In this document: positions 17,043 to 22,743 of the stretch, in pieces
Layout of the letters: each line of letters begins with the position of its first letter
How positions within the stretch are numbered: position 1 is the stretch's first letter
Source of the DNA: Deltaproteobacteria bacterium
GTDB taxonomy: Bacteria; Desulfobacterota_D; UBA1144; Nemesobacterales; UBA2774
Direction of reading: 5' to 3'
Length of the DNA: 64,000 nucleotides
Assembly: GCA_040223695.1 (NCBI GenBank)
Contig: JAVKFU010000020.1
Location: 1 to 64,000, forward strand
Made by a program: the position numbers and the translations under genes
Notes under the pieces: generated by a model
The model's database searches: none
Seen by the model: only the letters and a program-made list of their open reading frames with translations
Told to the model about the DNA's origin: nothing

Positions 17043-18146
17043 TTACAGCGGGTTGTCTGTCTTAAGCTTACCCTTTTTATTAAGCTCTTCTATCACCTTT
17101 TTTACATCTTGGGAATTTTCTTTATTCAATACCAGCACCCCGTTGTCGGAATCAACCACCACCAAATCCTTGACGCCGACAAGGGCTACAGCCTTGCGGT
17201 CGCCGTATATCAGACATCCGGACGAATCGACTGATACACCCCTGCCGAAAATTATGTTGTCCTCCCCGTCAGTTCTGAGGAATTCATCGAGGGCCTTCCA
17301 GCTTCCAACATCGCTCCAGGGGAAATTTACCGGAATTACAACCGTATTCGGGGACTTTTCAAGTATTAACTTATCAATTGATCCCGGTTCTATATTTTTA
17401 TAGAAAGACTGAATTACCTCGGGGCCCGATGTTTTGTCCATCGTTTCTAAAATTCGATCGAACTGACTGTGCCAGTCCGGAAGAATGCGTGAAAACTCGG
17501 ATATAACTGAAGAGCCCTTCCAGATAAATACACCGCTGTTCCAGTAATATCCTCCCTCATCGAGAAAACGGAGGGCTGTTTCCAAATCCGGCTTCTCTGT
17601 AAATCTTTTAACCTCAAGAGCACGGTAATCATCCGAGGAGAGTACCACATTATCTGTCTGCTTAATGTACCCGTATCCCGTCTCGGGTGATGAGGGCCTC
17701 ACGCCAAGCGTAATCAGCGGAAATTGTCCGTTATCAGTCTTCACGTCTGCTGCATCGGCTGCAAACCGGAGCGTATCCCTGAACGCCTCGTCGTCCCCTA
17801 TCGCATGGTCGGCCGGAATTACCGCGATTAGAGGCTCCTCAGCTTGTGCACAAATCCTGAGGGTACCGTACGCAATACAGGGAGCCGTATTCTTCCCCTC
17901 GGGCTCCAATATCAAATTCGCCAATGGAAGCTCGGGTATATGTTTCAGAGTTTCTTCCGCGTAACGGTCAACGGTGACAATAAAGATGTCTCCAATCGGA
18001 ATCAGAGGAAGGAGTCTGTCCACCGTCTGCCTTATCAGCGATTCTCCCCCGATAAGGGAAAGGAACTGCTTGGGCCTTTCCCTGCTGCTGAGAGGCCAGA
18101 ATCTTTTACCTTCACCGCCCGCCATTATTAACGCGTACATTTTCAT
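17043..18146 (-). CDS. manC: Mannose-1-phosphate guanylyltransferase
   Basis: 367 residues, matching the short, monofunctional enzymes that lack the C-terminal isomerase cupin. The N-terminal nucleotide motif LIMAGGEGKRFWPLSSRERP lies at about 6-25, VIPADHAIGD near 110, FTEKPD near 180 and NSGVFIWK near 203. It makes GDP-mannose for polysaccharide or glycan synthesis. No other sugar-nucleotide genes are adjacent. A promoter ends exactly 6 nt before the ATG and there is no ribosome site, so the transcript is predicted to start at the A of ATG. Confidence 0.92.
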   Translation of the reverse strand: MKMYALIMAGGEGKRFWPLSSRERPKQFLSLIGGESLIRQTVDRLLPLIPIGDIFIVTVDRYAEETLKHIPELPLANLILEPEGKNTAPCIAYGTLRICAQAEEPLIAVIPADHAIGDDEAFRDTLRFAADAADVKTDNGQFPLITLGVRPSSPETGYGYIKQTDNVVLSSDDYRALEVKRFTEKPDLETALRFLDEGGYYWNSGVFIWKGSSVISEFSRILPDWHSQFDRILETMDKTSGPEVIQSFYKNIEPGSIDKLILEKSPNTVVIPVNFPWSDVGSWKALDEFLRTDGEDNIIFGRGVSVDSSGCLIYGDRKAVALVGVKDLVVVDSDNGVLVLNKENSQDVKKVIEELNKKGKLKTDNPL

Positions 18147-18261: not shown

Positions 18262-18975
18262 ATGGGATATAAGCTCATTTTAATCGTATTGATTTTCGTA
18301 TACGCAAGCACCAGCCCCGCACTCGGCGGAGAGATCTACCGCTGGACAGATGAAGAAGGCGTAATCCATCTGGTAGATGACCCCGGCAAGGTCCCGCCCG
18401 AATACAGGGAATCGGCAAAAACAATCGACACCGAAGACGGAGATTTGACGGCTCAGGCGAAAAAACTCCTGATTGTAATTACAAGGAACAGTCTTACCGT
18501 CTTGACGCTCCTTACAATAGTTATTCTCCTCCTAATTCTTATTAAATCTACAAGCCACTTCAAGGGGAGGAGAAAAAAGCGGAAATGGGACAAAATTTTC
18601 GAATTCTACGAGCATTCGGGTGTTGAGAGGATGGATACTGCGGACTTTAAAAGCTTTGCAGCCGAGCTCCTCAAGCATAGGGGGTACGAGATTGACAATC
18701 TCCCCGACTGCGTTAATCCTGTCACCGACTTCATAGCGAAAAAGGGTGACTTAAAATACGCCGTTCACATCAACACAAATGCAAACAACGTATCAAGAAT
18801 GATAGTAAATGAGATTGACAGGGAGAAAGCACGTTTTGACTGTGACCGGTCAATCGTAATCACAAGACAATTTTGCGAGGATCAGGCCCGGAAACTCGGC
18901 CGGGCTGTCGGATGCACTCTGGTTGACAGGGATACACTCGCACGCTGGATATATGATTTACGGCATAAATCCTGA
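18262..18975 (+). CDS. Membrane protein: DUF4124 domain, TM segment, degenerate Mrr/PD-(D/E)XK-like domain
   Basis: 237 residues from the ATG at 18262; a longer frame begins at 18166, but the consensus promoter and signal peptide fix the later start. Order: signal peptide (about 1-22), DUF4124 motif EIYRWTDEEGVIHLVDDPGKVP (about 23-44), TM segment (about 80-102, LTVLTLLTIVILLLILI), basic stretch, then a domain of about 120 residues. This last domain resembles restriction-endonuclease-like Mrr_cat domains (FAAELLKHRGYEI, DFIAKKGDLKYAVHI, a C-terminal ALARWI-like helix DTLARWIYDL). The usual catalytic QxK/ExK is replaced by HIN, so nuclease activity is doubtful. The DUF4124 part should face the periplasm and the Mrr-like part the cytosol. 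Function unknown. Confidence 0.78.
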   Translation: MGYKLILIVLIFVYASTSPALGGEIYRWTDEEGVIHLVDDPGKVPPEYRESAKTIDTEDGDLTAQAKKLLIVITRNSLTVLTLLTIVILLLILIKSTSHFKGRRKKRKWDKIFEFYEHSGVERMDTADFKSFAAELLKHRGYEIDNLPDCVNPVTDFIAKKGDLKYAVHINTNANNVSRMIVNEIDREKARFDCDRSIVITRQFCEDQARKLGRAVGCTLVDRDTLARWIYDLRHKS

Positions 18976-19888: not shown

Positions 19889-20212
19889 ATGGATTCAATA
19901 AATTGCGCCAGGGTTCTGAAGGCGCTTGCCGACGACACGAGGCTTAAGATACTGGAATTGCTCTTCACGGGAGAATTTTCCGTATCGGAAATAGCCGAAC
20001 ACACCGGGGTTGAGTACTCTCAGGCTTCCCACCATCTGGGGGTGCTGAGGAACGCAGGTCTCGTCCTAGACAATAAGGAGGGAAAGTTCGTAATGTATAA
20101 ATTACACCCGGTTTGTTACCAAAACGGTCGCGAGAAAAAGAACATACTTGACTTTCACTGCTGCAGCATAGAATTCGGCAAGACTAATTTTATTCAAAAT
20201 AAAAATACTTAG
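19889..20212 (+). CDS. arsR: ArsR-family metalloregulator
   Basis: 107 residues with a winged-helix ArsR/SmtB fold: LKALADDTRLKILELL (about 10-25), recognition region VEYSQASHHLGVLRNAGLV (41-59) and wing DNKEGKFVMYKL. The ELLFTGEFSV alpha3 segment lacks the ELCVCDL thiolates of E. coli ArsR, but Cys76 and a C-terminal Cys91-Cys92 pair could bind As(III) in a different site, as happens in other ArsR types. Preceded by AGGAGTAGGT. It begins the arsenic cluster; the 117-nt gap to arsM holds its own promoter. Proposed role: As(III)-relieved repressor of the cluster. Confidence 0.88.
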   Translation: MDSINCARVLKALADDTRLKILELLFTGEFSVSEIAEHTGVEYSQASHHLGVLRNAGLVLDNKEGKFVMYKLHPVCYQNGREKKNILDFHCCSIEFGKTNFIQNKNT

Positions 20213-20278
20213 TTTTAAATTATATTCCGACAATCTTACTAACGTCGGAGCGATTAAAAAGTTTTAAATACAAAAAGA

Positions 20279-20307
20279 CGGACATTTCTTATTAAGCATA
20301 ATATAAT
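20279..20307 (+). promoter_or_regulatory. Promoter of arsM and downstream genes
   Basis: CGGACA (20279-20284), 17-nt spacer, consensus TATAAT (20302-20307), then AGGAGG at 20313-20318 before the arsM ATG at 20330. Upstream, TCCGAC...GTCGGA forms a 6-bp inverted repeat (about 20226-20249) that could be an operator or a weak end-of-arsR hairpin. Confidence 0.5.
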
Positions 20308-20329
20308 CGCTCAGGAGGCTCTTTTTAAA

Positions 20330-21292
20330 ATGCGAAATGACAACGATACCAGGGATTTTGTAAAGGATTTTTACGGCAGCGCTGCGCGAGACCCCGAGGA
20401 AAGTCTTTGCTGCCCCACCACCTACCCGTCTGAAGACACAGATCATATACCCAAAGATGTTATCGACAGGTTTTACGGGTGCGGAAGCCCTGTCAGCATA
20501 GCGGGAATAGTCCCAGGGGAGACCGTTCTCGATCTGGGCTCGGGCGCCGGCATTGATTGTTTCATCGCGGCAAGAAAAACGGGTCCCGGCGGAAGGGTCA
20601 TCGGCGTGGACATGACGGATGATATGCTAAAAGTGGCCGGAGAAAGCAAAATCACCGTTTCCGAGAATCTCGGATATGAAAATGTGGAATTCAGGAAAGG
20701 GTTTCTTGAGGAAATCCCGGTAGAGAACGGATCTGCCGACCTGGTTACCTCGAATTGCGTCATTAACCTGTCTCCCGACAAGAGGAAGGTATTCTCGGAA
20801 ATCCGGAGAGTCCTCAGGGATCACGGAAGATTAGTTATCTCGGACATAGTATCAGGGAGCGATATGCCCGATCACATTAAAAACGATAAACAGCTGCTTG
20901 GGGAATGTATAGCAGGGTCGCTGACCGAGAACCGGCTCCTTTCACAAATCGAGCAGGCGGGTTTCTACGGGCTCGAGGTGCTTAACAAGACCTATTGGAA
21001 AACAATCGAGAATATTGATTTCTATTCGGTCACGATACGGGGATACAAATATGAGAAGACTTCCGGCTGCGTCTACAAAGGTCAGTATGCGGCTTACAGG
21101 GGACCCTTCAAAGTGATAATAGACGAAGAAGGCCACGTCTTTCCACGAAATCAGCCGGTCGAGGTATGCACCGATACTGCTCAAAAACTTTCCCGGCCTC
21201 CGTATTCCGGTATGTTTACGATAACGGAGCCTGACGGCAGCGCGCAGGAAAGCCCCGGCTGTTCACCCAACGGCGGCGGCGCCTGCTGCTGA
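20330..21292 (+). CDS. arsM: Arsenite S-adenosylmethionine methyltransferase ArsM (arsenosugar type)
   Basis: 320 residues. The SAM motif VLDLGSGAGIDCFIAA is at 66-81 and GVDMTDDML at 92-100. Conserved arsenic-binding cysteines are visible: Cys27/Cys28 (ESLCCPTTYP), Cys51, Cys143 in SNCVINLSPDK and Cys193 in GECIAGSL. The 50-residue spacing of the last two equals that of the characterised algal ArsM. A C-terminal extension ends in GGGACC. The enzyme methylates As(III), yielding mono- and dimethylarsenicals. Followed by the peroxidase-like gene (33 nt) and arsS, so it supplies dimethylarsenic to ArsS. Selenocysteine is not used: the frame has no internal TGA. Confidence 0.93.
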   Translation: MRNDNDTRDFVKDFYGSAARDPEESLCCPTTYPSEDTDHIPKDVIDRFYGCGSPVSIAGIVPGETVLDLGSGAGIDCFIAARKTGPGGRVIGVDMTDDMLKVAGESKITVSENLGYENVEFRKGFLEEIPVENGSADLVTSNCVINLSPDKRKVFSEIRRVLRDHGRLVISDIVSGSDMPDHIKNDKQLLGECIAGSLTENRLLSQIEQAGFYGLEVLNKTYWKTIENIDFYSVTIRGYKYEKTSGCVYKGQYAAYRGPFKVIIDEEGHVFPRNQPVEVCTDTAQKLSRPPYSGMFTITEPDGSAQESPGCSPNGGGACC

Positions 21293-21325
21293 GCAACCGG
21301 CTATCAACATTAACGGAGGAATAAA

Positions 21326-21661
21326 ATGGATTATTACGATCCCAAGGATTTAAAGCGCTTTTCCGAAGTCGGGAAATTCAGCGAAGAGCTTATGAAGAAG
21401 TTCTTCGATTATTACAACGCGGCCACAGGTGAGGACGGGGCTCTGACAAAAAGAGAAAAAGCCCTGATAGCGCTGGCCGTGTCCCACGTAAAAAAATGCC
21501 CCTACTGCATCGATGCCTATACCACGCAGTGCCTTGAGAGCGGCGCAGACCCCGAGCAGATGACAGAGGCGATACATGTAGCGGCCTCATTGGAAGCGGG
21601 GATTACGCTCATTCACGGAATCCAGATGCATAACGTGCTTGAAAGAAACGGTGCGCTGTAA
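21326..21661 (+). CDS. AhpD/carboxymuconolactone-decarboxylase-like protein of arsenosugar clusters
   Basis: 111 residues, all-helical CMD/AhpD fold. The redox motif HVKKCPYCIDAYT has Cys58 and Cys61; the His found four residues after the second Cys in true AhpD is Tyr65. The type is regularly found beside arsS (NCBI calls it arsenosugar biosynthesis-associated peroxidase-like). Its reaction is unproven; reducing a methylarsenic(V) or protecting arsenic thiolates is a reasonable guess. GGAGGA lies 6 nt before the ATG. It sits between arsM and arsS, gaps 33 and 44 nt. Confidence 0.88.
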   Translation: MDYYDPKDLKRFSEVGKFSEELMKKFFDYYNAATGEDGALTKREKALIALAVSHVKKCPYCIDAYTTQCLESGADPEQMTEAIHVAASLEAGITLIHGIQMHNVLERNGAL

Positions 21662-21705
21662 TTATACGTATATAGATATATCATAGATCCGGTAAGGAGT
21701 TTCAG

Positions 21706-22743
21706 ATGTCTTTTGTCACCGTGCTCAAACGGAAGGAAAATATGGACTCTTCGGAGTACGACGAAAAATACAACTTTTACAAAACCCTCGAAGAAAACAA
21801 ACTTGCGTTGCGGCCTCTTGCTATCGACACCCTTCAGGTAAACGTCACCAAGCTGTGTAATCAGGCCTGTGTTCACTGCCACGTCGATGCCTCTCCGAAA
21901 CGAACCGAGCAGATGGACCTGAGGTCGGTTGACCGCTGTCTAGAAATACTCTCCGAACATCGTGCTATAAAGAATCTCGACATTACAGGGGGCGCACCCG
22001 AATTAAACCCGCATTTCGATTACTTTGTGTCTCAAGCCACAAACCTGGGGAAACATGTAATGGTAAGACACAACCTCACCGTAACTCTTGACGGAAATCC
22101 GGTCACAGGCGAGAGTAAGAGCTACCTCCCCGGTTTTTATGCCTACCACGGAGTAGAAGTTATATCGTCCCTGCCCTACTATCAGGAATATTTCACCGAC
22201 AGGCAGAGGGGAAAGGGGGTTTTCGAGAAAAGCATTGAGTCAATACTGCTTCTCAATAAAGAGGGGTACGGCAAGGACGACACAGGTCTAATACTTAATT
22301 TCGTATATAATCCGGCAGGGGCCTTTCTCCCCGGTTCACAGAAGAGCCTCGAATCGGATTTCAAGCGTGAGTTATACAAGAAATACGGCATTATGTTCAA
22401 CCGCCTATACGCCATTACAAACATGCCCATCAACCGGTTCAAACAGCAGCTCAAGCGCCTGGGCGCTTACGACGATTACATGAACAAGCTCGTAAACGCA
22501 TTCAACCCCGCGGCGGCCGAGGGAGTTATGTGCCGGTCGCTTTTAAGTGTGAGCCATGACGGTCGAATCTATGACTGCGACTTCAACCAGATGCTTAATA
22601 TGGAGATAAGCAACGAGAGAGGACCGATGACTATCTTCGATTTTGATTACGATGCAATGATAAACCGCAAGATAATGTTCGCCTCCCACTGTTACGGATG
22701 CACAGCAGGCTCGGGGAGCGGTTGTGGAGGAGCCACCGCGTAG
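21706..22743 (+). CDS. arsS: Radical SAM arsenosugar biosynthesis enzyme ArsS
   Basis: 345 residues. The radical SAM cluster motif is Cys51-x3-Cys55-x2-Cys58 (KLCNQACVHCH), followed by DITGGAPELNPHF, the glycine-rich SAM contact. A C-terminal DUF3641-type region has MCRSLLSVSHDGRIYDCDFNQ, and a tail with Cys329, Cys332 and Cys340 (CYGCTAGSGSGCGG) probably binds a further Fe-S cluster. The family adds the 5'-deoxyadenosyl group of SAM to dimethylarsenite, giving the arsenosugar precursor. AAGGAG precedes the start. Some relatives carry selenocysteine in the tail; here only cysteines are found. Confidence 0.92.
   Translation: MSFVTVLKRKENMDSSEYDEKYNFYKTLEENKLALRPLAIDTLQVNVTKLCNQACVHCHVDASPKRTEQMDLRSVDRCLEILSEHRAIKNLDITGGAPELNPHFDYFVSQATNLGKHVMVRHNLTVTLDGNPVTGESKSYLPGFYAYHGVEVISSLPYYQEYFTDRQRGKGVFEKSIESILLLNKEGYGKDDTGLILNFVYNPAGAFLPGSQKSLESDFKRELYKKYGIMFNRLYAITNMPINRFKQQLKRLGAYDDYMNKLVNAFNPAAAEGVMCRSLLSVSHDGRIYDCDFNQMLNMEISNERGPMTIFDFDYDAMINRKIMFASHCYGCTAGSGSGCGGATA

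Follow-up and report, generated by a model that had tools for sequence, protein, structure and literature searches.

An uninterrupted open reading frame at positions 18262-18975 (plus strand) of the 64,000-nucleotide stretch of DNA analysed here (the window) encodes a 237-residue protein in which a DUF4124 domain is joined to an Mrr-like domain, which raises the question of whether this protein is still a nuclease and, if it is not, what the Mrr-like domain would be kept for. Both parts scored above their Pfam cut-offs, DUF4124 (PF13511) at residues 17-57 (E 9.5e-6, 26.2 bits against 22) and Mrr_cat (PF04471) at residues 122-230 (E 8.4e-13, 48.9 bits against 21), with a single membrane helix and a run of basic residues between them; this bears out the membrane architecture and the Mrr family assignment of the original prediction, an earlier reading of this DNA from its letters and translations. 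The signal peptide that it proposed agrees with the N-terminus as we read it, by eye rather than with a signal-peptide program: residues 5-16 are hydrophobic and a small-residue stretch comes next. Given the KGRRKKRK stretch after the membrane helix and the established positive-inside rule of membrane topology, the Mrr-like domain is predicted to be cytoplasmic. The features of the locus are as follows.

17043..18146, minus strand: NTP_transferase / ManC_GMP beta-helix gene of mannose-1-phosphate guanylyltransferase type, the divergent neighbour (Pfam)
18262..18975, plus strand: DUF4124 - transmembrane helix - degenerate Mrr_cat protein, 237 residues (open reading frame and Pfam)
18262..18330, plus strand: probable N-terminal signal sequence, residues 1-23 (by reading; helix 2-17 in the model)
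18310..18432, plus strand: DUF4124 domain, residues 17-57, predicted periplasmic (Pfam; Y26, W28, D30, G33, H36, D39 and P45 invariant across the seven fusions)
18490..18546, plus strand: transmembrane helix, about residues 77-95 (hydropathy scan; helix 62-118 in the model)
18562..18585, plus strand: basic stretch KGRRKKRK, residues 101-108, a cytoplasmic-side marker (sequence; positive-inside rule)
18625..18951, plus strand: degenerate Mrr_cat domain, residues 122-230, predicted PD-(D/E)XK fold (Pfam, model, structure matches)
18649..18651, plus strand: Lys130 at the former helix-1 Glu (Mrr-domain alignment)
18727..18729, plus strand: Asp156, the motif-II Asp, retained (Mrr-domain alignment)
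18766..18774, plus strand: His169-Ile170-Asn171 at the former QxK (Mrr-domain alignment)
18820..18834, plus strand: family-specific helix residues Arg187, Glu188 and basic 191 (conservation in the fusion family)

Searches with the window protein gave no family name in NCBIfam and nothing meaningful among the sequences of solved structures, and PADLOC returned a ZorD match at the domain level only. The start codon is preceded, at a distance of about 10 to 12 bases, by TATAAT (window:18246-18262), as are those of two related genes of the order (G030 and G032; L106 and L108), and none of these three starts has a clear ribosome-binding site; the transcript is possibly leaderless.

For the structure model, the window protein was aligned with ten Mrr domains of viral origin and with four DUF4124 rows; the model reached a mean pLDDT of 87.8, with values above 90 across most of residues 121-237. 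Its Mrr part runs helix, three strands, helix, strand, helix, strand, helix, and the restriction-endonuclease helix picked out in the original prediction is found as ELLKHRGYEI at about residues 134-144. Foldseek at E up to 0.001 gave three matches, AF1548 and two MspJI forms; VIA-align placed AF1548 (1y88) best (Z 14.3, rmsd 2.0, 109 aligned), followed by AspBHI (Z 12.6) and MspJI (Z 12.1), and structures missing from the VIA list were not taken as evidence. As modelled, the domain has the PD-(D/E)XK core alpha-beta-beta-beta-alpha-beta fold and so is not of the unrelated fold that the earlier reading had named as the contrary outcome. An alignment-free prediction was uninformative (pLDDT 51), and given the failure of this control the model leans on homology to Mrr domains; with active Mrr rows in the model alignment, the predicted fold is not independent of that homology. 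Rpb5, the jaw domain fold of which we take to be a dead nuclease, was also among the fold matches, weakly (Z 6 to 7).

We then compared active sites across 47 aligned Mrr domains, namely the seven full-length DUF4124-Mrr fusions of the order to which the window genome belongs, 23 other matches from the order, seven from other groups and ten of viral origin. Neither the intact-site paralogue nor P0001 nor the L115 domain found relatives in the viral scans, and phage Mrr proteins were used as the viral comparison instead; three of the 33 Mrr matches in the order stood outside the alignment (G032:C30 and G011:C71, neither of which has a locus, and G016:C60, L074). Removal of four rows gapped at an active-site position (L054, L060, L062, L063) from the 40 non-fusion rows left 36 for comparison, and Q and E were both counted as kept at the third position. 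The fusions kept 10 of 28 active-site letters against 138 of 144 in the ungapped comparison domains, and complete sites numbered 0 of 7 against 32 of 36 (the incomplete ones being L057, L068, L072 and L119). In the window protein HIN at 169-171 falls exactly at QxK, as originally proposed, and one of the four positions is kept, so the description "catalytically degenerate" stands and can be extended to the whole fusion family. When the conserved Asp and Lys were checked, the Asp proved to be present (Asp156) and the Lys position to be occupied by Asn171.

At the E/D/Q/K positions the individual fusions read KDHN (window), ENQE (G030), ETQE (G032), TDQK (G026), KDKV (G017), RRHI (G022) and KDLS (G029), the G026 fusion keeping three of four (D, Q and K). 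These differing states suggest either that loss was repeated after the fusion or that an early relaxation was followed by drift at these positions. The window protein is a relative of Mrr_cat by sequence and is not classed as an Mrr-type enzyme: the residues needed by a type IV (modification-dependent) restriction enzyme are mostly absent from it, and, judged by these residues, it very probably does not cut. Two further Mrr-like proteins of the order, of about 265 residues (L068 from G030:C2 and L060 from G016:C34), may belong to a second dead Mrr family; the active site of L068 reads KSHK, with most residues lost.

PD-(D/E)XK enzymes can place active-site residues on core helices, as reported in the excerpted text of PMC1913061, and on that precedent the window protein could still cut with a rearranged site, for example one built from Asp156 and residues on helix 179-191 such as Glu188 and Lys189. 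The Asp156 position is kept in the window, G017, G026 and G029 members, and the helix after strand 3 does carry acidic and basic residues; the motif-II residue is, however, Asn, Thr and Arg in G030, G032 and G022, the four active-site positions vary from member to member and, Glu188 aside, the conserved columns hold no consistent acidic replacement. Nor does the alignment of the seven homologues show relocated catalytic residues, the shifted positions that the earlier reading had asked about, and we regard a rearranged active site as improbable.

A search profile of eight proteins (the seven fusions and the intact-site paralogue) found full-length fusions in seven of the 43 order genomes (G000, G017, G022, G026, G029, G030, G032), from families f1, f3, f4 and f6, and thereby supplied the other DUF4124-plus-Mrr_cat examples that the original prediction had proposed to look for. 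The remaining 36 genomes gave no full-length match, so the gene is dispensable to the group. Outside the order, no listed match extended over both domains in a set of 386 broad relatives (order members among them), and none spanned both in 398 genomes of the phylum of the L040 genome, 377 of that of L033, 395 of that of L035 or further small genome sets; these large searches were E-limited and for many rows scored at most seven candidates per genome, and a divergent fusion may escape them. The out-of-order matches listed were DUF4124 alone or Mrr alone, and one from the L035-phylum search (G1309) matched over 3-110 only. Neither 72,556 plasmid records nor 50,697 phage records yielded a match covering 80% of the query, and those listed (20 of 22 for plasmids, 3 of 3 for phages) take in the Mrr domain and in some cases the linker too. 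A mobile or phage defence gene was rejected as the main reading given this absence of plasmid or phage matches at 80% coverage and the synteny of the locus.

In a midpoint-rooted tree of 26 Mrr rows the seven fusion Mrr domains form one clade with support 100/100. Beside it stand L065 (G026), with an intact site, and L054 (G032), with D, Q and K intact and the helix-1 part lost to the contig end; L115, which comes from another group, falls outside. This nesting suggests that the ancestor of the fusions was an intact-site membrane Mrr. The order within the clade is unsure, given the length of several fusion branches (L061 1.9).

Five of the seven fusions have a chromosomal neighbourhood in common. 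In four loci (window, G026, G017 and G022) the ManC-type gene is conserved, divergent from the fusion, and after the fusion come gmk, relA/spoT and lepB and, on contigs that reach far enough, pyrB and what we take to be pyrC; G029 shares this gene row but lacks the ManC gene, and the G030 and G032 fusions adjoin instead two related ORFs, presumably oxidase-like. At a second place in G026 a free DUF4124 ORF (L105:8957-9226) overlaps an intact-site transmembrane Mrr ORF (L105:9214-10110) by 13 bases, and the pair looks like the fusion in two separate pieces. A conserved neighbour at this second locus is a cysteine-rich protein (L105:10162-10722, L108:389-967) with a DUF4124-like end that scores 19.6 bits, below the Pfam cut-off. 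About 5 kb from the intact-site gene in G026 lies an ORF (L105:2963-3823) with an SPPY motif, presumably like that of DNA methyltransferases. In the window, positions 19889-22743 hold a row of regulator, methyltransferase and radical-SAM-like genes, mostly syntenic with G029; we take it to resemble arsenic methylation genes, the names being our assumption and the Pfam scan covering the methyltransferase only.

The patchy presence of the gene (7 of 43 genomes), the long branches of the fusion clade and an in-frame TGA in one member would all fit a decaying remnant, in which the Mrr part is unneeded and the gene is heading for loss. The TGA lies within DUF4124 of the G026 fusion (L104:9726-10451) and means that the copy is broken, that the assembly is in error or that the codon is recoded. 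Against decay, the frames are open in six of seven fusions, the neighbourhood is common to families f1, f3, f4 and f6, and the Mrr part appears to be under constraint. The closest pair of fusion proteins, G030 and G032 (84% identical), is the one pair from which dN/dS was estimated (NG86): 0.23 for the whole gene, 0.09 for codons 1-57 (the DUF4124 part, the most constrained), 0.55 for codons 58-130, where dS is very low, and 0.20 for codons 131-252 (the Mrr part). Along the two genes (L106:3715-4473 and L108:1215-1973) dS is uneven, at 0.25, 0.07 and 0.77 in the three segments, which looks as though recombination had replaced the N-terminal half.

Within the Mrr domain of this pair, 8 of 10 residues differ in the dead-site loop against 16 of 105 elsewhere (Fisher p 4e-5, with loop boundaries picked after the differences had been viewed and the last seven residues, all different, excluded). 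On the helix after the dead site, residues are newly conserved across the fusions: R187 in six of seven, E188 in six with one D, and R or K at 191 in all seven, where the active paralogue has Ala, Gly and His. Local release at the dead site together with new constraint points to changed use rather than decay, and we consider the decaying remnant quite unlikely. The Mrr-domain pI in the fusion family, 5.2 to 8.9, is near neutral with no net basic charge, and thus neither favours DNA binding nor speaks against it; the sensor role named in the original prediction is a putative one.

Alternatively, DUF4124 could be the working part and the Mrr-like domain a mere cytoplasmic anchor or folding scaffold. 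The low dN/dS of DUF4124 in the G030/G032 pair agrees with this, as do the many DUF4124 matches in the order that have no Mrr match alongside. The conservation of R187, E188 and R/K191 nevertheless exceeds what a scaffold needs, and a scaffold role is, in our judgement, unlikely.

A built-in brake, in which the pseudonuclease pairs with an active Mrr of the same cell and blocks it, would call for such a partner. G026 and G032 have, beside the fusion, the intact-site transmembrane Mrr or its Mrr part, and G022 has a different intact-site transmembrane Mrr (L055); yet the window ORF is the single Mrr_cat match at E up to 10 in its genome, which is 95.6% complete, and G017 and G029 have no Mrr match beyond the fusion at E up to 0.01. 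We therefore hold such a brake to be very unlikely.

What points to a pilus or DNA-uptake link of the fusion is co-occurrence. TfpC of Neisseria gonorrhoeae is a DUF4124 protein needed for keeping type IV pili extended, according to the available part of PMC7593972. PilT (TIGR01420) is above its cut-off in 20 of 43 order genomes, and a DUF4124 match is present in all 20 of these (19 from one search, G006 from another) against 1 of the 23 without PilT, namely G007, which is 59% complete. Counted by hand at the level of genus, DUF4124 is found in 14 of 14 with PilT against 0 of 3 without (p 0.0015), an association that could reflect shared gene loss, since the PilT-less genera mostly have smaller genomes. 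The fusion itself occurs in 7 of 20 genomes with PilT against 0 of 23 without, which by genus is not significant (6 of 14 against 0 of 3, p 0.51). No pilus genes were found adjoining the fusion gene at the loci compared, and in the window genome the genes beside two free-standing DUF4124 ORFs do not read as pilus genes. A bolder version, that DUF4124 tied a membrane nuclease policing DNA at the envelope to the machinery of the type IV pilus or of DNA uptake, that cutting was then lost, and that the protein today retains incoming DNA or passes it on, or else signals the state of that machinery, as a domesticated pseudonuclease spanning periplasm and cytoplasm, is a speculation to which we give little credence.

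We favour, with a probability of about 50%, the reading that the window protein is an inner-membrane pseudonuclease, in which a nuclease of the membrane acquired a DUF4124 domain on the periplasmic side, ceased to cut and was retained for binding in the cytoplasm. Comparison shows that its clade, nested among membrane-anchored Mrr proteins with an intact E/D/QxK site and fused to DUF4124, lost the active site differently by lineage while the remaining domain stayed, to go by one pair, under purifying selection, and that family-specific conserved residues arose on the helix following the dead site. In the present-day protein the signal sequence would export DUF4124 to the periplasm, one helix would span the membrane and the Mrr-like domain would lie in the cytoplasm, where it may act as a binding module for a nucleic acid or protein partner; DUF4124 may hold this module at an envelope site or switch it in response to that site.

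The closest tree branches to the fusions are intact-site Mrr_cat (PF04471) membrane proteins (for example L105:9214-10107 and L115), which likewise have one or more N-terminal membrane helices and Mrr_cat but, unlike the fusions, retain E/D/Q/K and carry no DUF4124 on their chain. A named family with an inactive restriction-endonuclease fold is NA-iREase1 (PF22722, NACHT-associated inactive restriction endonuclease); the intact-site paralogue of G026 matches it at 7.8e-9, the window protein has no match at E up to 10, a search in which HMMER filters drop weak matches, and no NACHT gene was found among the eight window neighbours scanned. Unlike the window protein, Rpb5 and the second domain of COG1395 are neither membrane-bound nor fused to DUF4124. 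Dead and membrane-bound PD-(D/E)XK domains have each been described already, in the excerpts of PMC1189080: the second domain of COG1395 is a nuclease fold without an active site, presumed kept for binding, and COG4741, proposed as a guardian against foreign DNA, combines an N-terminal membrane helix with a YraN-type PD-(D/E)XK domain whose predicted location is the cytosolic side. As described there, COG4741 differs from the window protein in its well conserved active site, its YraN-like rather than Mrr-like domain and its lack of DUF4124. TfpC is, like the window protein, an envelope protein with DUF4124, yet the available part of PMC7593972 predicts it to be periplasmic and describes no nuclease-fold domain in it. 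Our literature search found no paper naming DUF4124 and Mrr together.

Collectively, these data indicate a real, order-limited family, found mostly at one chromosomal place, of DUF4124-fused membrane Mrr domains without a cutting site. The function of DUF4124 is, to our knowledge, little known, and here it gains a cytoplasmic partner domain for testing. Within one bacterial order the transition can be traced stepwise, from an intact-site membrane Mrr to an intact one overlapping a free DUF4124 gene, then to a fusion with three of the four residues left and finally to a fusion with none, which makes the family a small natural test case of a restriction-type nuclease turning into a non-cutting part.
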